Both the position numbers and the translations under genes were made by a program. The notes beneath the pieces are model-generated. The model ran no database searches and was not told where the DNA came from. It was given only the letters and a program-made list of their open reading frames with translations. DNA of 45,582 nt from Methanobrevibacter sp. (lineage in GTDB: Archaea > Methanobacteriota > Methanobacteria > Methanobacteriales > Methanobacteriaceae), in NCBI GenBank assembly GCA_022775905.1, contig JALFJX010000013.1, positions 1-45,582 on the forward strand, in the 5' to 3' direction. Below are positions 4,461 through 27,238 of this stretch, piece after piece. The stretch's first letter is position 1, and each line of letters opens with the position of its first letter.

Positions 4461-6287
4461 ATGAGAATTTTATTAATTCATTCTGATTATTTAAATTATA
4501 ATGTAAAAAATAAAACACCTGTAGCTGAAGATATTGAAGAAGCTAAAAAAGAAGGTTCCTTCGATGACTCTTTAGTAGTATTTACAGCTGTTGAAAAAGA
4601 TGATGAAAATAATCCAGAAGGTATTGTTAAAAATTTAGTCAGTGAAGTTAAAAAAACTAATGATCAAGTTAAAGCTGAAAATATCGTATTATATCCTTAT
4701 GCTCACTTATCTTCTTCATTAAGCTCTCCAAAAGTTGCTGTACAAATCTTAAAAGATGCAGAGGAAGCTTTACTTGCTGAAGACTTTAATGTAAAAAGAG
4801 TACCTTTCGGATGGTATAAAGCATTTGAAATTTCCTGTAAAGGTCACCCATTAAGTGAACTTTCAAGAACTATCACTGCAGATAATGCAGATGAAGCAAA
4901 AGTAGAAAGAAAACCTTCCAAATGGCAAATCCTTGAAGGTAACAAAATCACTCAAATTGAAGACTTTGAATTCAACAATAAGGCTTTCAAACAACTCGTT
5001 GATTATGAATTAGGTCAAGGCGCATCCGATGAAGGAGAACCTCCTCACGTTAAATTAATGAGAGAAAAAGAAATTTGTGATTATGAACCTGCTTCTGATG
5101 TTGGAAACCTCAGATGGTATCCAAAAGGTAGATTAATAAGAGATTTACTTGCAGATTATGTTTACAACCTCACAGTAGATAATGGAGCAATGCCAATTGA
5201 AACTCCAATTTTCTACGATTTAGATAATGAAGCAATATATCAACATGCATACAAATTTGGTGAAAGACAATACAGAACTGACACCAAAAAGAACTTAATG
5301 CTCAGATTTGCATGCTGTTTCGGTGCATTCAGAACAATGGCTGATTCATACTTAACTTGGAAAAACTTACCAGCTAAAGTTTATGAATTATCCACTTACA
5401 GTTTCCGTTTCGAGAAAAAAGGAGAAGTTGTAGGTCTTAAAAGATTAAGAGCATTCACCATGCCTGATTTCCACTCTTTCTGTGCTGATGTTCCAGCATC
5501 TCTCGAAGAATTTGCAAATCAAACTGACATGTGTATGCAAACCGGTAAAGACTTAGAATTAGACTTTGAAGTAATTTTCAGAGCAACCCAAGACTTCTTT
5601 GATGACCATGAAGAATGGATGTATGAAATTGCTGAAAAATTCGGTAAACCTATTTTACTTGAAGTTTTACCTGAAAGACACCACTATTGGGTATGTAAAA
5701 TCGACTTAGCTAACATTGATGCGTTAGGTCGTCCAATTGAAAACCCAACTGTTCAAATTGATGTTGAAAGTGGTAAAAGATTCGGTATTTCTTACTTAGG
5801 TGAAGACGGCGAGCAACATAATCCAACTATCTTACATTGTTCTCCAACCGGAAGTATTGAAAGAGTTTTATGTGCAATGCTTGAAAAAACTGCAATTGAA
5901 TTAAATGAGAAATCTCCAATGTTACCTACTTGGTTAAGTCCAATCCAAGCTAGAATTTTAACTGTCGGTGAATCTCACAAAGAATTTGCAGAAGAATTAT
6001 ATGAAAAAATCAAAGCTTCAAACATTCGTGTAGATATTGATGATAGGGATGAAAGTGTAGGTAAAAAAATCAGAAATGCATCCAAAGAATGGATCCCATA
6101 CATTTTCGTCGTTGGAGATAAAGAAGTTGAATCCGGTAAATTCCAAGTAACCGTACGTGAAACTGGTGAAAAAGTCGACATGACTGTTGATGAATTAATT
6201 GCTGAAGTTAACGAAAAATGTGAAGGAAAACCTTTCAGAAGATTACCTTTACCTAAAGATATCTCAAGAAGGATTAACTTCCAATAA
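4461..6287 (+). CDS. thrS: Threonyl-tRNA synthetase, archaeal type
   Basis: A class II aminoacyl-tRNA synthetase that charges tRNA-Thr in the cytoplasm; 608 residues, the normal length for archaeal ThrRS. The first ~140 residues ('[20 protein letters not shown]') form the archaeal D-aminoacyl-deacylase-like editing domain, which replaces the bacterial TGS/SAD editing module. The catalytic core shows motif 2 ('[20 protein letters not shown]'), Zn-ligand regions around 'FACCFGAF', 'MPDFHSF' and '[10 protein letters not shown]', and motif 3 ('GSIERVL'). The C-terminal ~110 residues form the class IIa anticodon-binding domain ('[18 protein letters not shown]', '[15 protein letters not shown]'). 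Its own promoter and a GGTGG RBS support the start. It precedes fae-hps by ~50 bases but shares no function with it. Confidence 0.97.
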
Positions 6288-6339
6288 ATAATTAATTATA
6301 TTTATAAATAAACTAATACTATTATATGGAGGAAATTTA

Positions 6340-7590
6340 ATGGACCCAATGTATAAAATAGGAGAAGCTCTCATTGGAGATGGCCCTGAATTAGCACACA
6401 TTGATTTATTAATTGGTGACAAATTTGGCCCTGTTGGTCAAGCTTTCGCTAATGGTTTATCAAACTTATCTGTAGGACATACTCCTTTAACAAGCGTAAT
6501 TAGACCTAATTTAATGACCAAACCAGCTACTTTAATTATTCCTAAAGTAACTGTTGGTGATTTAGATGATGCTAGTAAAATTTTTGGACCTGCACAAACT
6601 GCTGTTGCAAGAGCAGTAGCTGATGCAGTAGAAGATGGATACATTCCAAAAGAAATTGTAGAAGATATCGTAATTAACGTAAGTGTATTCATTGATCCAT
6701 CTGCTAAAGATTACAGAAAAATTTACCAATACAACTACGGAGCAACCAAATTAGCAATCAGAAGAGCTATGGCAGATTACCCATCTATCGAAAAAGTTTT
6801 AGCAGAAAAAGATCGTGGAACTCACCCAATTATGGGATTCAAAGTCAAAAAACTTTGGTCACCACCATACTTACAAGTTGCACTTGACTTAGATAATGAA
6901 GCTGCTATGGAAAGAATCATTAAAGATTTACCTGACAACGACAGAATCTTACTCGAAGCTGGTACTCCACTCGTTAAAAAATTCGGTGTTGGAATTATTG
7001 GTAAAATCAGAGCTTTACGTCCTGATGCATTCATTATTGCTGACTTAAAAACTTTAGACGTTGGTCGTGTAGAAGTTAAAATGGCAGCAGACGAAACTGC
7101 TGATGCAGTTGCTATTTCCGGTCTCGGTACTATTGAATCTATTGCTAAAGCTATTCACGAAACCCAAAAACAAGGTATTTACTCTATCTTAGATATGATG
7201 AATGTTGCTGGTTTCGAAGAAAAATTAGCTCAACTTCCTGATGACTTAAAACCAGATATTGTTTTATTACACAGAAATGTTGATATGGAATCCTACATTA
7301 CAGAACACGGTGGAGACACTGGTGACATGACTGAATGGGGTAACATTAAAGATATCAAAGCAGTCTTAGGTGAAAAAGGACTCATTGCTGTTGCTGGTGG
7401 TATTAGACCTAACAATGCTGAAGAAGCAATTGAAAAAGGTGCTAACATCATTATTGCTGGTAGATACATCATTGGTTCTAGAGATGTAAGAAGAGCTGCA
7501 CAAGACTTCTTAGAACATTTCGAACCAGATCCAGACAACATGAGACTTGCTATGGATGAAGACGAAAATATTGATGTGAACAAAGAGTAA
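6340..7590 (+). CDS. fae-hps: Bifunctional formaldehyde-activating enzyme / 3-hexulose-6-phosphate synthase
   Basis: Residues ~1-160 are Fae, which condenses formaldehyde with tetrahydromethanopterin. The signature is '[17 protein letters not shown]', with the likely catalytic base His20, then 'VGHTPLTSV' and '[20 protein letters not shown]'. Residues ~165-390 are Hps, a TIM barrel of the OMP-decarboxylase suprafamily with the 'DLKTLD' motif at 235-240 and phosphate-binding '[13 protein letters not shown]' and 'IIIAGRYI'. In methanogens the fusion is thought to run the ribulose monophosphate route backwards, making ribulose-5-phosphate for nucleotide synthesis and capturing the released formaldehyde on H4MPT. 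416 residues is typical for the fusion. RBS GGAGG at about 6329 fits ATG 6340. The stop codon opens a terminator hairpin. Confidence 0.96.
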
Positions 7591-7640: not shown

Positions 7641-7922
7641 ATGGGATTTTGCAATTCATGCGGTAGACCAATTGTAAAAGAAGATTATGGAACTAATAAG
7701 GATGGTAGTTTAAATCCTGATTTTTGCAAAGATTGTTATCAAGATGGTGAATATACAGAACCAGATATAACTCTAGCAGAAATGATTACAAGAAAAACAT
7801 TAGAAATGATGGAAAAAAATCCAAGGTTGCCTGAAACACAAGCAACTGGTATTACAGCATTGGTTATTCCAAGCCTTAAGAGATGGAATCCAGAGTTTCA
7901 AGATGATTATAAAACTCTTTAA
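7641..7922 (+). CDS. Small zinc-ribbon protein
   Basis: 93 residues. The N-terminus 'MGFCNSCGRPIVKEDYGT' and 'DFCKDCYQDGEYTEPD' provide two CxxC knuckles (Cys4/Cys7 and the FCKDC pair), the pattern of the putative zinc-ribbon family Pfam PF12674. The remainder is a helical tail ('AEMITRKTLEMMEKNP') ending in Trp/Phe-rich residues. The function of this family is not established. The gene follows the fae-hps terminator and is convergent with the coiled-coil gene, the two stop codons overlapping by four bases (7919-7922). The short leader TGGAGTTTTTATTATG gives a recognisable RBS. Confidence 0.8.
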   Translation: MGFCNSCGRPIVKEDYGTNKDGSLNPDFCKDCYQDGEYTEPDITLAEMITRKTLEMMEKNPRLPETQATGITALVIPSLKRWNPEFQDDYKTL

Positions 7923-8758
7923 TTTCCACTTTTTAAAATAAATTCTTTAACTTTATTGGCGATGTACTCATCGTGGTTTTTCATAGTTCTAATTTTATAT
8001 AATTCTTCTTCTAAGTTGTTTACTTTATCAACTAAGTCATTATATTCTAAAATAAGATTGTCATATTCTTTTTCTAAGCCTTCATTGATTTCATAAATTT
8101 CAGCATAGCTTGTTTTTGTGTTGAGGTTTTCTTGTTTTAATTGATCGTATTTGTCTGAAACTTGATTGTAACTATTTTTAATATTTGAATGTTCATCTTT
8201 TAAGTTGGAGTATTTCATTTTAAGGTTCTTGTTTTCTTCTTTCATGCTTGAATATTTGGTTTTCAAGTTTTCATTTTCAGTTTTAATATTGACGAATTTG
8301 GTTTTTAAGTTTTCATTCTCAATAATTAATTTGGAATGTTTATCTTTCATTCTTTCATTTTCTTCCTTGAGTTGGTCAATATTGTCTTTTTTCATGGAAT
8401 TGTATTCATCTTCCATATCTTCTAAAGAAGTAACCTTAGTTTTCAACTCTTCGATTTCTTTTTCATATTCTGAAGTAGAGTTTAAGTTTTCATCCACTTT
8501 ATCATTCAATCGTTTCACTTCCTCAACATAAAGATAATTGGCCACTTTTAAGAATTCATTTTCTTCTTCTATACTCTTAAAAGTTTCAATTTCGTTGTTT
8601 GGGATAATTAAAACTTCTTCTTCGTTACTATAAATGTCTTCGTTTTTCGGAATAGTGATTTGAATTTGTTCAGTGGTGTATTTTTTCTTTTCACCATTTT
8701 TAAGTGTTCTATTATATTCTCTTGAATATTTTTTTACAGTACCTTTTCCGAATTTCAT
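7919..8758 (-). CDS. Coiled-coil protein with 14-residue repeats
   Basis: 279 residues of unknown function. Residues 1-60 form a small N-terminal segment, basic at first ('MKFGKGTVKKYSREYNRTLK') and then strand-like ('TTEQIQITIPKNEDIY', 'EEEVLIIP'). Residues ~62-258 are an almost unbroken coiled coil rich in E, K and N. Within it, residues 133-202 are five 14-residue repeats of the form ENENLKxKYSxMKE (a sixth is degenerate), i.e. two exact heptads per repeat. There is no signal peptide or membrane segment, so it is probably cytoplasmic and elongated or dimeric. It could be structural or an SMC-like accessory; no catalytic motif is visible. It is transcribed alone, with an AT-rich leader upstream of 8758. 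Confidence 0.75.
   Translation of the reverse strand: MKFGKGTVKKYSREYNRTLKNGEKKKYTTEQIQITIPKNEDIYSNEEEVLIIPNNEIETFKSIEEENEFLKVANYLYVEEVKRLNDKVDENLNSTSEYEKEIEELKTKVTSLEDMEDEYNSMKKDNIDQLKEENERMKDKHSKLIIENENLKTKFVNIKTENENLKTKYSSMKEENKNLKMKYSNLKDEHSNIKNSYNQVSDKYDQLKQENLNTKTSYAEIYEINEGLEKEYDNLILEYNDLVDKVNNLEEELYKIRTMKNHDEYIANKVKEFILKSGN
8153..8362 (-). repeat. 42-bp tandem repeats coding for a 14-residue coiled-coil unit
   Basis: Five consecutive 42-bp units encode residues 133-202 of the coiled-coil protein. The central three (residues 147-188) are the most alike, with strings such as 'ENENLKTK' repeated at exactly 14-residue spacing. Confidence 0.7.
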
Positions 8759-8825: not shown

Positions 8826-8923
8826 GAGTAATACTTTTTGTTATTTTTTCATACTTTTAGTAATACTATTATATAAAAATTTATTATAAACATTGTTTAA
8901 ATATAATAATGTAATATGGGGAG
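8826..8923 (+). promoter_or_regulatory. Promoter, RBS and paired AGTAATACT motifs upstream of secreted protein gene
   Basis: TATA-like TTATATAAAA at 8869-8878 and GGGGAG RBS at 8918-8923 precede ATG 8932. Just upstream of the TATA box AGTAATACT occurs twice (8827-8835 and 8859-8867), 32 bases apart. This near-palindrome could be an operator. Confidence 0.45.
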
Positions 8924-8931
8924 TTTGAATA

Positions 8932-10155
8932 ATGTTTAGTAATAAGAAATTATTTTTGATAGTCATGGTATTATCTATTCTTTTTTTATCTACTCAAGTT
9001 GCTTTTGCTCAAGATATTGATAATGTAACTCTGGGAGATAATGGAGATAATCATGTTTTATCCAATGATAATCTGTACAGAATGGACGTACTGCTAAACA
9101 TCAATGCCCAAGATAATCATGTTTTATCCAATGATAATCCTAAAAATAAAACAGTATTTATCATTTCAGATAGTCCTGGAACTAATATTCTGGATTCTGC
9201 AAGTGGTGATATTTACAATAATGACAATTTATCCGGTTTTGATTTAGTTGTAAGAAGTGGAGATCAAGTAAAGGATATGGATGAAGAAGAGTTGCATTCT
9301 TTATTTGAATCATCTGATGCTTTTATTGGTGAGTGGATTAGTACTGATGTTGATTCAGTTTTAACAAGTCTTTTGACTAAATACCCTGAAGTATCTAATA
9401 AGGAATTATTTTTAATTTTAGAACTCCCTTCTGGTAATTTAAATTCTGGTTCAACATCTCTTAATTTAGTTAGAAATAATACTTTAAATTATAATAAGAT
9501 TTTTTCTTCCTATACTGATGCTGAATTAATTGAATATTTCGAAAATACAAAAAGAGGAAGTTCATATACAGATTTCAGTAATTATATTGAAGAATCTAGT
9601 TTCAATGATGTTTTCAATCAATTGGTTCTTTATAAAAATCTCAATGATAAGGATAATTTAAAAGATGCAAATGGAAATGCAATTGCAAATGCAAAAGTAA
9701 CTGTTACATTAAATGGTGCTAAAAAAGTTTTAACTACTAATGATAAAGGTCAGGTTAGTTATGCTATCTCATCTACATTAGCTCCTAAAACTTACACTGC
9801 ACAAATTTCATTTGATGGTGATTCAAATCACATTAAATCAACTGCAAAAACAACTGTTGTAGTTAAAAAAGCAACTCCTAAAATGACAGCTAAATCAGTT
9901 ACATTTAAAGTAAAAACAAAAACTAAAAAATACTCTATTACTTTAAAAGATAATGCTGGTAAAGTCATGAAAAAAGTTAAAGTTACAATAAAAGTAAACG
10001 GCAAAACCTACAGTGCAGTAACTGATAATTATGGTAAAACTACTTTTAAAATAACTAAATTAACTAAAAAAGGAAAATTCACTGCAACTATTAAATATGC
10101 AGGTAGCAAATACTTTAATGCATTAACAAAATCTGTAAAAATAACAACTAAATAG
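8932..10155 (+). CDS. Secreted CobN-like N-terminal domain joined to adhesin-type Ig repeats
   Basis: 407 residues. Residues 1-26 are a clear signal peptide ('LIVMVLSILFLSTQVAFAQD'), so it is exported. Residues ~68-248 ('TVFIISDSPGTNILDSAS', 'DAFIGEWISTDVDSVL', 'NELFLILE'-like strand, 'SLNLVRNNTLNYNKIF', 'LIEYFENTKRGSSY', 'VLYKNLNDKDNL') resemble, from memory, the leading domain of secreted CobN-like (cobaltochelatase large subunit-like) proteins of Methanobrevibacter. The large chelatase core that should follow is absent. At about residue 245 the sequence switches to an Ig-like module ('KDANGNAIANAKVTVTLNG') and then to the Lys-rich C-terminal module ('NGKTYSAVTDNYG', 'LTKKGKFTATIKYAG') also found at 2461-2626. 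It therefore looks like a deletion fusion with an intact frame. It may act as a wall-associated binding protein; chelatase activity is not expected. Confidence 0.7.
   Translation: MFSNKKLFLIVMVLSILFLSTQVAFAQDIDNVTLGDNGDNHVLSNDNLYRMDVLLNINAQDNHVLSNDNPKNKTVFIISDSPGTNILDSASGDIYNNDNLSGFDLVVRSGDQVKDMDEEELHSLFESSDAFIGEWISTDVDSVLTSLLTKYPEVSNKELFLILELPSGNLNSGSTSLNLVRNNTLNYNKIFSSYTDAELIEYFENTKRGSSYTDFSNYIEESSFNDVFNQLVLYKNLNDKDNLKDANGNAIANAKVTVTLNGAKKVLTTNDKGQVSYAISSTLAPKTYTAQISFDGDSNHIKSTAKTTVVVKKATPKMTAKSVTFKVKTKTKKYSITLKDNAGKVMKKVKVTIKVNGKTYSAVTDNYGKTTFKITKLTKKGKFTATIKYAGSKYFNALTKSVKITTK
9046..9139 (+). repeat. 28-bp direct repeat in the leader of the secreted protein
   Basis: A perfect 28-base repeat at 9046-9073 and 9112-9139 (period 66) encodes 'DNHVLSNDN' twice, just after the signal peptide. 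Together with the intervening 38 bases it is a 22-residue in-frame duplication. Confidence 0.8.
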
Positions 10156-10185
10156 AGATTAATTTTCTCTATTTTTCTTTTTTTT
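10150..10185 (+). terminator. Hairpin terminator of secreted protein gene
   Basis: A perfect 9-bp stem (AAATAGAGA 10150-10158 with TCTCTATTT 10166-10174) and 7-base loop, followed by TTCTTTTTTTT. The TAG stop (10153-10155) is in the left arm. Confidence 0.75.
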
Positions 10186-10223
10186 CACGAAATTATTTTA
10201 ATCAATGTTTATAAACTATTTTT

Positions 10224-10808
10224 ATGAAAGTCTTTGGAATTTGTGCTAGCCCTAGAAATAATACAACTGAATATGTTCTATCAAGAGCATTGGATAAGTT
10301 AAATGAAGATGGTTTTGATACTGAAATGTTTACCTGTCAAGCAAAAGACATCAGGCCTTGTATGCATTGCGACTACTGTCTGGAGCATAAAAAATGTATT
10401 ATTGAAGATGACATGGATGAAGTTTATGAGGGTCTCTTAAATGCTGATGGAATAATATTGGCTACTCCAATTCAAAGTGGGGGTATCAGCAGTAATCTTT
10501 CAACTATAATGGATAGAACCAGAGCTTTGGAAGCAGTTGACTATAACATTTTAAGAGGAAAGATTGGAATGAGTATTGCAGTTGGAGGAGACAGGACAGG
10601 CGGCCAGGACTTTGCACATCTAAAAAACATTACATATTTCATGATACACGGTATTATTCCGGTTAGTGGAGGTCCTTTTGGATCAAATTTGGGTGCTTCA
10701 TTCTGGTCAAATGACTCTTTAGATGATATCAAAAAAGATAATTATGGAGTGGAGTCATTAGACAGGACTTTAATTGAATTTGAAAATTTTCTAAATAAGT
10801 ATATTTAA
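10224..10808 (+). CDS. Iron-sulfur flavoprotein (Isf-like NADPH-dependent FMN reductase family)
   Basis: 194 residues, flavodoxin-like fold. The N-terminus 'MKVFGICASPRNNTTEYVL' is the FMN phosphate-binding loop. It is followed by a compact cysteine motif 'CMHCDYCLEHKKC' (CX2CX2CX5C), the arrangement that binds one [4Fe-4S] cluster in Methanosarcina Isf. 'ADGIILATPIQSGGISSNL' and 'GGDRTGGQ' are typical of the family. Isf proteins are homodimeric electron carriers linked to ferredoxin and to O2/H2O2 detoxification in methanogens; the partner here is unknown. No convincing RBS precedes ATG 10224, so a short or leaderless transcript is likely. The flippase starts 50 bases downstream. Confidence 0.87.
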   Translation: MKVFGICASPRNNTTEYVLSRALDKLNEDGFDTEMFTCQAKDIRPCMHCDYCLEHKKCIIEDDMDEVYEGLLNADGIILATPIQSGGISSNLSTIMDRTRALEAVDYNILRGKIGMSIAVGGDRTGGQDFAHLKNITYFMIHGIIPVSGGPFGSNLGASFWSNDSLDDIKKDNYGVESLDRTLIEFENFLNKYI

Positions 10809-10857
10809 ATACTAAAATTAAGTTATATTAATAATAGCTAATTTTTAAGGTAATATT

Positions 10858-12414
10858 ATGGCAAATAAGTTAGTACGAGGTAGTTTAATAATTTTGATTG
10901 GTAACATAATTTTCCGTATTGGAGGTTATATTTACCGTTTTTTAATGGCTATTTTACTTGGGCCTACTGCATACGGAATTTTAGGAATTACTTTACCATT
11001 CCAAGGTATTTTCCAGACTTTATCTGCTGGTGGACTTCCTCCTGCTATTGCTAAATACGTTGCTGAATATGAGGCTGTTGATGAAAAGGATATGGCTCGC
11101 CAAACCATCTATACAGCCTTAAAGATAATGGTATTTTTAGGTTTATTCTTTGGAGTATTGATGATATTTGTTGTTGCTCCTTATTTGGCTTATGGTTATC
11201 TTGGAAAACCTGAAGCATTAATTCCACTTCAAATTGTGGGACTTATTACTCCATTCAGTGTAATTGTTGGTGCTTTTAGAGGAGCATTCCAGGGAGTCTA
11301 TAAAATGGAGTATATTGTTTATACTCGTGCTGTAGAGCAACTTGGTATGATTTTATTTGCAACAGCATTTGTTTTGATAGGTTTATCTACTGTTGGAGCA
11401 TTATGGGGTACTGTTTTAGGATATTCTCTTTCTGTTGTGGCTGCAGTTTATATTTTTAAATATCATATGGGCAAATTAATTCCAAAAGCTAGTGATGATT
11501 TTGTTTTCACAAGGCGTGATGAGTTAAAATTGGCTGGTACATTAGTTAAGTTTTCTATCCCTGTAATTATCACAGCTATTGCTGAAATGCTCATTTACAA
11601 TATTTGTACAATTGTAATGGGTAAGTTTTTAACATTTGATGATATTGGATTCTTTGCAGCAGCAGATCCTATTGCAAGATTGCCTTTAATCATCTCCGTA
11701 TCTATTGCAACTACTATTTTGCCTGCTTCATCAGAGGCATTCAAGTTAAAAGATATTGATATGCTTCAAAAATATGTTTCCGAAGCTTATAAGTTCTCAT
11801 TATTGTTTGTAGTTCCTATGTGTGTTGGACTTGCATTATTTGCAGCACCTACTTTAAGGGTTCTATACTTTAAAAATCCTGCTTATGTTGCAGGAGCATC
11901 TGCATTGGCAATTTTATCTTTAGGAATGACATTTTATTCAATATTTGCTATTTCAACTAGTATTGTTCAGGGAATTGGAAATCCAAGAATTCCTATGTAT
12001 ATTTTAGTTGGTGGTGCAATTGTTACTGGTATATTAAATTGGGTTATGGTTCCAACTCTTGGAATTGCTGGTGGTGCACTCGCTACAAGTGTGGCTTGTT
12101 TCTTAATGATGGTTCCATGTGTATACTTTGTATTTAGATTAACAAAAACTAAAGCTCCTGTTGGATCAATAGCTAAGATATTAATTGCTTCAGCGATTAT
12201 GGGTGCAGTTGCATACATTATTCCAAAAACAACTTTGTTCTTGTTCCCTGGAATATTTTTATGTATTGTTGTATACTTCTTCGCTTTAATATTAGTTAAA
12301 TTCTTCCAAAAAGATGATATTGCAAGTTTAAGAGCATTTTCATCTAAGTTTGGACCTTTGTCTAAAATTATCAACAAAATGTTAAACTTTGTAGAAAGAA
12401 TTGAATTTAGATAA
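10858..12414 (+). CDS. Polysaccharide flippase, MOP superfamily (SpoVB/RfbX-like)
   Basis: 518 residues, almost entirely hydrophobic, with about 12-14 predicted membrane helices. The opening 'GSLIILIGNIIFRIGGYIYR', then 'LGPTAYGILGITLPFQGIF' and 'GLPPAIAKYVAEY', are characteristic of the polysaccharide biosynthesis/MviN-like branch of the MATE/MOP superfamily. These proteins flip lipid-linked oligosaccharides or peptidoglycan precursors across the membrane. In a pseudomurein-containing archaeon it could export pseudomurein or N-glycan precursors, but the substrate cannot be told from sequence. Cytoplasmic loops such as 'KASDDFVFTRRDELKLAG' are of normal length. RBS AAGGT precedes ATG 10858. 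It is the last gene before a 245-base gap. Confidence 0.88.
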   Translation: MANKLVRGSLIILIGNIIFRIGGYIYRFLMAILLGPTAYGILGITLPFQGIFQTLSAGGLPPAIAKYVAEYEAVDEKDMARQTIYTALKIMVFLGLFFGVLMIFVVAPYLAYGYLGKPEALIPLQIVGLITPFSVIVGAFRGAFQGVYKMEYIVYTRAVEQLGMILFATAFVLIGLSTVGALWGTVLGYSLSVVAAVYIFKYHMGKLIPKASDDFVFTRRDELKLAGTLVKFSIPVIITAIAEMLIYNICTIVMGKFLTFDDIGFFAAADPIARLPLIISVSIATTILPASSEAFKLKDIDMLQKYVSEAYKFSLLFVVPMCVGLALFAAPTLRVLYFKNPAYVAGASALAILSLGMTFYSIFAISTSIVQGIGNPRIPMYILVGGAIVTGILNWVMVPTLGIAGGALATSVACFLMMVPCVYFVFRLTKTKAPVGSIAKILIASAIMGAVAYIIPKTTLFLFPGIFLCIVVYFFALILVKFFQKDDIASLRAFSSKFGPLSKIINKMLNFVERIEFR

Positions 12415-25734: not shown

Positions 25735-27238
25735 AGATAAAACCTTCGGAGTTATTGGTGTTTGTGGAGCAAACGGAAATTTAATAGCAAGAATCCTAAA
25801 ACAAAGAGGATTTAATGTTATTGGAACAGATTTATCTTCAAAGGAAGATTGTCGGTTTGCTAAAGCATTAGAAGGTTATGATATTGAAGTATTTTATGGA
25901 GAGACTCCAGAAGAGTTTTTTGAAAAAGCAGATTATATAGTTCCTCCAGCAAGTCTATCTAAAGATTCTAATTTGTTTAAACAAATAGGTGATAAGCCTA
26001 TTTTCGAATTATATGATGTAATTGAAAAAATTCAACCTGAAAAGCCAGTATTCGGAATAACAGGTACAAATGGTAAAACAACTACCACTACTTTACTTAA
26101 AAAAATCGCTTATGACAATGGAATCAAACCATGTGAGCATGATTTGGAAGGTATGCAAGGTAATGCGGAATTCATTCCAATCCTTCAATCAAGATTGGAT
26201 GGGGAGGTAGGTATTCTTGAAGTTGGAACCTTCGGTATTGAAGGTACTATTGGCAGAATTGTTAGAAATACTGGAATGTCTGGTGGGTTGATTACAAATA
26301 TTACTCCTGATCATTTAAATGACCTTGGAAGTTTCATGGATTATGCAAGAGTCAAAGCAGAATTCATATCTGAAATAGGAAATGGTCAATTAATTGTTAA
26401 TGGACAAGACCCAACAATTATGGGATTATTAAGAGACATGGATTTCAAAGGAGATGTAATTACATTTGGTGTTGATGAACTTCCTGAATCTGTTGGAATG
26501 AAGGAATGTGTCTGTGGTAATGAAATTGCAGTTAAGGAAATAATCTCTGGTTGTGGATACTACTTCTGTAAATGCGGTCTTACAACTCCTCAAGTTGATT
26601 ATATTGCAACAAATATTGATTTAAAAAATAGAACATTTGATTTGCATACTCCTGATGAAAAATTAACAGTTAAAATGGGTATTGATGGACTTCACAATGT
26701 ATACAATTTAACTGGAGTTATTATTGCAGCTCATAAATTCTTGGATTTACCGTATGATAAAATCTTACCTACTATTGCTAGTTTTTCTGGTGTAAGTGGA
26801 AGAATGGAAGAGATTGCAAATGTTGAAGGTAAAGATATTTATGTTGACTATGCTCACAATCCTGCAGGTGTTGAAACCGTATTAAAAGAATTCAAAAAGT
26901 TATTTGGTGATTTCACAACTGTAATTACAGTTTCATCCGAATCAGGATATGTTGGAGATAGTGCAATATTCGATAGTGTTTTAAAATTCTCAAAATTCAT
27001 TGTTCCTGCATCTGTTGCATCACAAAAAATAGCTATGGAAAAATTGAAGGAAACTCCTGAATTGAATAGCAGAGTATTTTTAAACCATGTTGATGACTTT
27101 AAAAAAGTTGGAACTCTTGGAGCTTCTGAAGAAGAGGTTAAAGAGGGTTTAAGAAAAGCTTTAAACTTGGATTGTGAAATGGTAATAGCTATTGGTGAAG
27201 CTGCTACCAAATTCAAAAACGTTGTTTTTGAATTATAA
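25727..27238 (+). CDS. Mur ligase family protein, probable pseudomurein peptide ligase (pMurE-like)
   Basis: 503 residues with the complete Mur ligase signature. The P-loop is GTNGKTTT at 113-120, followed by 'ITNITPDHLNDLGSF', 'HNVYNLTGVIIAA', 'FSGVSGRMEEI' and 'IYVDYAHNPAGVETVL' (the canonical DYAHNP). Unlike standard MurE it has a cysteine cluster at residues 261-283 (CVC, C276, CKC), suggesting a zinc knuckle within the central domain, somewhat like that of bacterial MurT. Known pseudomurein ligases of methanogens are homologous to MurE/F. It starts inside the end of the preceding ligase (25727 vs 25734), so the products are likely made in equal amounts and may act consecutively. Confidence 0.87.
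   Translation: MNKDKTFGVIGVCGANGNLIARILKQRGFNVIGTDLSSKEDCRFAKALEGYDIEVFYGETPEEFFEKADYIVPPASLSKDSNLFKQIGDKPIFELYDVIEKIQPEKPVFGITGTNGKTTTTTLLKKIAYDNGIKPCEHDLEGMQGNAEFIPILQSRLDGEVGILEVGTFGIEGTIGRIVRNTGMSGGLITNITPDHLNDLGSFMDYARVKAEFISEIGNGQLIVNGQDPTIMGLLRDMDFKGDVITFGVDELPESVGMKECVCGNEIAVKEIISGCGYYFCKCGLTTPQVDYIATNIDLKNRTFDLHTPDEKLTVKMGIDGLHNVYNLTGVIIAAHKFLDLPYDKILPTIASFSGVSGRMEEIANVEGKDIYVDYAHNPAGVETVLKEFKKLFGDFTTVITVSSESGYVGDSAIFDSVLKFSKFIVPASVASQKIAMEKLKETPELNSRVFLNHVDDFKKVGTLGASEEEVKEGLRKALNLDCEMVIAIGEAATKFKNVVFEL

Follow-up and report, generated by a model that had tools for sequence, protein, structure and literature searches.

How did the start of a CobN-like protein come to be joined in frame to an adhesin-like tail, and is the product a new gene or a remnant? 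This question is raised by a locus of Methanobrevibacter sp. in the window, by which we mean the whole 45,582-nucleotide stretch of DNA that was analyzed; positions without a prefix refer to it. Reading its open frames, we found an ATG-initiated frame of 407 amino acids at 8932 to 10155 on the forward strand. An earlier note, made from the sequence alone, had described an intact frame in which a CobN-like leading domain, lacking the chelatase body, switches at about residue 245 to Ig-like adhesin modules. All 407 codons are indeed open. The parts of the gene and its flanks are as follows.

4461 to 7590, forward strand: thrS and fae-hps, left flank (Pfam matches and synteny)
7919 to 8758, reverse strand: conserved coiled-coil gene, left flank, also 5' of the intact cassette in relatives (synteny)
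8827 to 8867 (sites at 8827-8835 and 8859-8867), forward strand: paired AGTAATACT palindromes, a putative operator for metal-dependent control that derives from the CobN cassette
8932 to 9021, forward strand: signal peptide region, residues about 1 to 27, judged by eye from the sequence (helix at 5 to 16 in a low-confidence model)
9142 to 9663, forward strand: head, residues about 71 to 244, equivalent to the N-terminal domain of a secreted CobN-like protein (51 of the 67 genus genomes carry it; predicted ChlH-like fold)
9658 to 9663, forward strand: fusion junction TTA AAA, L243-K244 (Leu-Lys common to both parents; three to six identical bases in register)
9658 to 10155, forward strand: tail, the last approximately 165 residues of what reads as the cassette's DUF3344/Ig adhesin, with two Ig-like modules (Pfam and cross-genome matches)
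10150 to 10186, forward strand: terminator-like hairpin and T-rich stretch past the stop codon, also in the relatives' adhesin gene
10224 to 12414, forward strand: FMN reductase and a gene that we take, from its sequence type, to encode a flippase, right flank; both follow the adhesin in relatives (Pfam search of the flank and synteny)

A CobN-like head with a predicted ChlH fold

The head (residues 59 to 242) occurs in 51 of the 67 genomes of the genus, the window's own included, and is 45 to 80% identical in the 50 others, where it belongs to CobN-like proteins as the earlier note had proposed. The frames that carry it in the relatives are 813 to 1767 amino acids long, mostly about 1,650 to 1,760. 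The 15 named records among these relatives are all Methanobrevibacter, several of them labelled goat, reindeer, or water buffalo. Because neither Pfam nor NCBIfam has a model that matches the head itself, the CobN label is based on its full-length relatives and on the predicted fold. In the relatives, the Pfam chelatase domain (PF02514) starts where the head ends; in genome G036, for example, the domain starts at 27088 while the head match runs to 27102.

To the residue 71 to 243 segment we fitted an AF2 model using 34 relatives (pLDDT 81.7, pTM 0.78). Five magnesium chelatase H entries headed the structures matched by this model (Z 9.9 to 10.8, rmsd 3.4 to 3.7, 141 to 149 residues aligned), the span matched in ChlH running from residue 21 to 198-200, and the next unrelated row had a Z of 5.7. 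Foldseek also ranked ChlH first (E 0.0046), and residues 2 to 138 of Mycobacterium tuberculosis CobN matched weakly (Z 4.9). For the whole 407-residue protein, no relative was found among PDB sequences (best E 0.15); the model of the full-length fusion was poor (pLDDT 55.5), and its Foldseek list held mostly Ig-type chains, with ChlH at rank 33. As judged from the head model, the head is a real CobN/ChlH part with a predicted N-terminal Rossmann-like domain. The window protein therefore compares with the large chelatase subunits CobN, ChlH, and BchH (PF02514) in the modeled fold of the ChlH N-terminal domain, but it has none of the Pfam chelatase domain: a Pfam search of the 407 residues gave no PF02514 match at E ≤ 1, in agreement with the missing chelatase body of the earlier note.

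The short architecture appears in one of the 51 head-bearing genomes, and we rejected it as the ancestral form; it is derived, as had been supposed. Several other short frames were rejected as similar forms. Those of 813, 1031, and 1217 amino acids lie on contigs of 3.7, 8.2, and 9.3 kb, the one among them from G009 having an in-frame TAA as well, and the 1360-residue frame of G039 ends at an in-frame TGA inside the chelatase body. This TGA (locus L066, on contig C42) is either a sequence error or decay of that CobN-like gene.

A source for the head within the same genome was likewise rejected, as residues 59 to 242 match only themselves there. The earlier note had called for a full-length CobN-like paralogue in the same genome. 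One is present, a protein of 1,609 amino acids on contig C9 (C9:246310-249522), but it is without this head, and there is therefore no same-genome paralogue with which to compare the junction.

Comparison of the locus with relatives points to one deletion

The tail (residues about 243 to 407) scores above the Pfam cut-offs for Big_3_5, CarboxypepD_reg, and Big_1. Many adhesin-like frames end in related sequence, with matches at E ≤ 1e-20 in 49 of the 67 genomes. With a signal peptide, as judged by eye, and Ig-like modules, the product classes as an adhesin-like protein. Like other Methanobrevibacter adhesin-like proteins, it would be secreted and carries Ig-like, Lys-rich C-terminal modules; unlike them, it has a chelatase N-terminal domain replacing the adhesin's own N-terminal part.

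We read the locus in nine relatives. Seven of them carry the head and the adhesin tail on one stretch, the tails being 54 to 64% identical to that of the window and lying 8401, 9556, 9516, 9539, 9861, 8365, and 9505 bp from the head. The FMN reductase and flippase genes stand 3' of the tail in six of these seven, as well as in G056 and G054 (with the latter's tail at G054:C50), and were not seen in the stretches of G040, G014, and G050. Upstream of the cassette, thrS and fae-hps are found in L065, G036, G062, and G049, and fae-hps is found in G046. Between head and tail, L065 has the CobN body, DUF2162, MotA_ExbB, DUF2149, and the DUF3344 part of the adhesin, all above their Pfam cut-offs. In the window, the order is thrS, fae-hps, the coiled-coil gene, the fusion, FMN reductase, and flippase, with nothing between head and tail. 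Because the window has both of the relatives' flanks and a zero gap between them, a single deletion would have created the fusion. By this comparison, three genes were lost in full, along with most of the two outermost genes of the five-gene cassette, whose remaining ends are now fused.

The same comparison identifies the tail as the end of the adhesin gene closing this cassette. The Ig-like modules named in the earlier note are thus borne out by Pfam, but their description as generic adhesin modules is not. Because the tail is read as the end of the local cassette's adhesin, the chimera is read as a deletion scar. The ends of the gene agree with its two parents: the fusion's upstream region aligns with that of the relatives' CobN genes, as expected from the promoter remark of the earlier note, and the hairpin past the stop codon aligns with that of the relatives' adhesin genes. 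This hairpin has a 9-bp stem followed by T runs (z -1.61), so that a terminator, also suggested earlier, is plausible, albeit one inherited from the adhesin.

No remnant of the cassette was found elsewhere in the genome. Its sole PF02514 match is in the different CobN-like gene, and its only DUF2149 match belongs to a separate trio of DUF2162/ExbB/DUF2149 type on contig C22 (L121:9189-10894), which has no CobN-like neighbor in the stretch read; DUF2149 was assigned there by model, and the other two genes were recognized by sequence and order.

The switch lies at L243-K244, close to the residue 245 proposed. Both parent genes encode Leu-Lys at this point, and they do so in one frame. The junction codon was readable in 26 of the 29 relatives tried (the other three were off pattern). 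TTA AAA occurs in the CobN gene of 3 of these 26, which would give six bases shared with the adhesin, and the commonest Leu codons of the relatives, CTT and CTC, match the adhesin at three bases in register. With only three to six common bases, the break fits end joining or microhomology, not homologous recombination.

The heads of G014 (80%) and G050 (77%), both among the closest, belong to cassettes at other sites, with tails only 28 to 36% alike; the cassette is therefore mobile, and its history is in part more complicated. In these genomes (L067 and L070), the whole CobN-to-adhesin cassette stands at other chromosomal places and seems to move as a unit. A nikR gene (G014:C67:38743-38970) lies about 9 kb downstream of the relocated cassette's DUF2149 gene (C67:29781).

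A paired palindrome upstream suggests nickel control

Alignment of the upstream regions revealed two AGTAATACT palindromes spaced 32 bp start to start, the window copies beginning at 8827 and 8859. Of the heads, 51 had 250 bp or more of upstream sequence and could be scored (L107 fell short of this and was excluded); 37 of them have the pair with at most one mismatch per site, and in 30 it is exact, against 0.2 expected from shuffles. It was found for 27 of 29 heads with more than 400 bp upstream versus 10 of 22 with 330 bp or less, and it is absent in G062 and G020 within the 700 bp read. Across the genus, exact AGTAWTACT pairs number 324, in 66 of 67 genomes, with their sites usually 31 to 33 bp apart start to start; the reversed control pattern occurs once, in the window's own genome.

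Other pairs in this genome are at C9:73295-73335, C12:97516-97556, and C12:97689-97730, and one of its pairs precedes an adhesin gene. On contig C9 (L134:3096-5211), an adhesin gene behind an operator pair seems to be broken into two overlapping frames of 120 and 592 amino acids, possibly through a frameshift. At 12 chosen loci, which serve as examples rather than a census, the genes beside the pair encode CbiM/CbiN, Hmd, NikA-like binding proteins with Nik/Opp permeases, and a heavy-metal P-type ATPase. The CbiM, Hmd, and ATPase assignments pass NCBIfam cut-offs; the NikA and CbiN matches are below theirs. Because the pair precedes CbiM, Hmd, NikA-like, and metal ATPase genes, nickel control is suggested. 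From this placement we infer that the pair is a nickel-responsive operator common to nickel genes, as far as the 324 pairs and the 12 chosen loci go, and that it outlines a candidate nickel regulon of the genus. NikR (PF08753) is present in 63 of the 67 genomes, including that of the window, and would probably be the regulator acting at this candidate operator.

According to the parts of the cited papers available to us, CobN1 and NikR1 of Methanothermobacter marburgensis are abundant only under nickel limitation (PMC12350162) and hmd transcription goes up under nickel limitation (PMC3087415). CobN1, annotated as CobN and high only at nickel limitation together with NikR1, fits the control site. 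The likeness is one of annotation and regulation, and the portion of text available gives no sign that CobN1 is a fusion. A search of an open library by title or abstract gave no paper on this fusion or this operator.

No sign of relaxed selection on the head

The window head keeps all 25 columns that are invariant in the other heads and departs at 1 of 13 columns that are at least 95% conserved. Counted over 52 rows, private changes at invariant columns are zero in the window head and one or two in five rows. In a codon test of 18 of the 52 heads (167 codons, other branch lengths fixed at the one-omega fit), omega was 0.112 on the window branch and 0.094 elsewhere (2dlnL 0.2). The upper bound for the window branch is about 0.25, and about 15% of the branch may have been neutral at the 95% level. 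Thus, relaxed selection on the head is not evident, but a fusion of recent date would give this result too. Because the window branch includes time before the fusion, its omega cannot serve as evidence that the fused gene itself is under selection. The head data argue against a long neutral phase since the fusion but are compatible with a recent event.

Alternative origins and the question of function

Comparison with relatives shows both parent genes, both flanks, the genes that were lost, and the junction with its frame kept. We propose that one deletion of about 8.4 to 9.9 kb joined codon 243 or so of a secreted CobN-like gene to the adhesin's last approximately 165 codons, the break presumably being sealed at very short homology. 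Fusion of the CobN head and the cassette adhesin's tail by one deletion, together with the steps we infer around it, is the best explanation as a whole, with a probability of roughly 0.88. An assembler that skipped the cassette and joined its two ends would give the same picture, and the genome is one draft assembly of 37 contigs in which adhesin tails are repetitive (11 matches at E ≤ 1e-20). However, the three to six junction bases that the parents share in register, as read in the relatives, are well under the usual assembly word, which makes a collapse by the assembler unlikely. Moreover, the tail's nearest copies in the genome are just 61 to 66% identical in protein, the cassette's CobN body is nowhere else in a genome rated 99.98% complete, and the fusion frame is intact; we consider such an artefact very improbable. 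The tail could also have come from another adhesin copy of the same genome, by gene conversion or shuffling, rather than from the local cassette. Related tails are many there, and the one at the end of contig C24 is 63 to 66% identical to the window's, compared with 64% for the best cassette adhesins of other species. This origin is scarcely credible given that FMN reductase and flippase follow directly 3' of the tail as they follow the cassette adhesin in relatives, that the hairpin after the stop codon is the cassette adhesin's, and that five of the first nine matches in other genomes (G036, G056, G062, G046, and G040) lie on the head's contig, in the cassette.

Given a one-deletion fusion, we lean slightly toward a recent, functionless scar that happens to be in frame and is heading for decay, whether expressed or not. 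Loss of the head-bearing CobN is frequent in the genus, with no head in 16 of the 67 genomes (9 of these among the 37 good-quality ones); what is unusual here is that a fusion was left behind. One-third of junctions would be in frame by chance, and the neutral fraction of the window branch given above leaves room for such a history. The intact frame, the retention of all invariant head residues, and the retained promoter, control site, and terminator-like hairpin stand against it. The other reading is a selected new gene, in which the head, freed from the chelatase body, would bind a ligand or partner at the cell surface. The junction falls at a domain boundary on both sides, with Pfam CobN starting at the head's end and an Ig module at the tail, and the low branch omega with its upper bound agrees with selection. 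But the fusion is in one genome only, and a recent fusion would look alike, which leaves a selected gene rather unlikely in our estimation. Taken together, the gene is most likely what remains of a nickel-regulated surface system that was lost, and it is probably still expressible, as read from its sequence. It may still be transcribed from the cassette promoter under a nickel-responsive repressor, and its product would be secreted, with an Ig stalk bearing the N-terminal domain of CobN/ChlH and with no chelatase activity.

The lost cassette and what it may have done

In the available text of PMC10434189, the hmu operon of Porphyromonas gingivalis and Prevotella intermedia is annotated with CobN, a hypothetical protein, MotA/TolQ/ExbB, and DUF2149 after HmuY and HmuR, and PMC12583661, as far as its available part goes, describes HmuS as a heme de-chelatase. 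The relatives' cassette has the same order as HmuSTUV of Bacteroidota: CobN-like, membrane protein (DUF2162), MotA/TolQ/ExbB, and DUF2149. This order is present in L065 (9869-16591), and in the window all of it is gone but the CobN head. The likeness is known from gene order, DUF2162 and HmuT being placed together by position. The archaeal cluster differs in having no visible HmuY or TonB receptor, in closing with a DUF3344/Ig adhesin, and in carrying the AGTAWTACT pair. The lost cassette would have been a cell-surface metal acquisition system, most likely for nickel, built like HmuSTUV.

As an example of a new secreted gene apparently arising from one deletion, of about 9,000 bases in one gut-type methanogen, the locus is unusually clear, with the parents, flanks, and junction all visible in sister species. 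To the earlier description we add its probable origin as the scar of a whole cassette, the identity of its right half, and its inherited control site. In the part available, PMC12583661 gives the function of archaeal CobN-like proteins as unclear, notes that these species lack complete hmu operons, and leaves the role of archaeal CobN-like proteins away from cobalamin genes as an open question. Together, the candidate operator and the HmuSTUV-like gene order point to nickel acquisition and provide a testable lead on those roles. It is a doubtful idea that the lost genes formed the archaeal equivalent of HmuSTUV, taking nickel from tetrapyrroles (e.g., F430 debris) at the surface under nickel starvation; here the cluster would have been traded for a nickel-starvation-induced surface protein made of its first and last genes, with the CobN head serving by itself for binding. 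The scar is a curiosity of a single genome, while the nickel-linked, HmuSTUV-like cassette is worth following.
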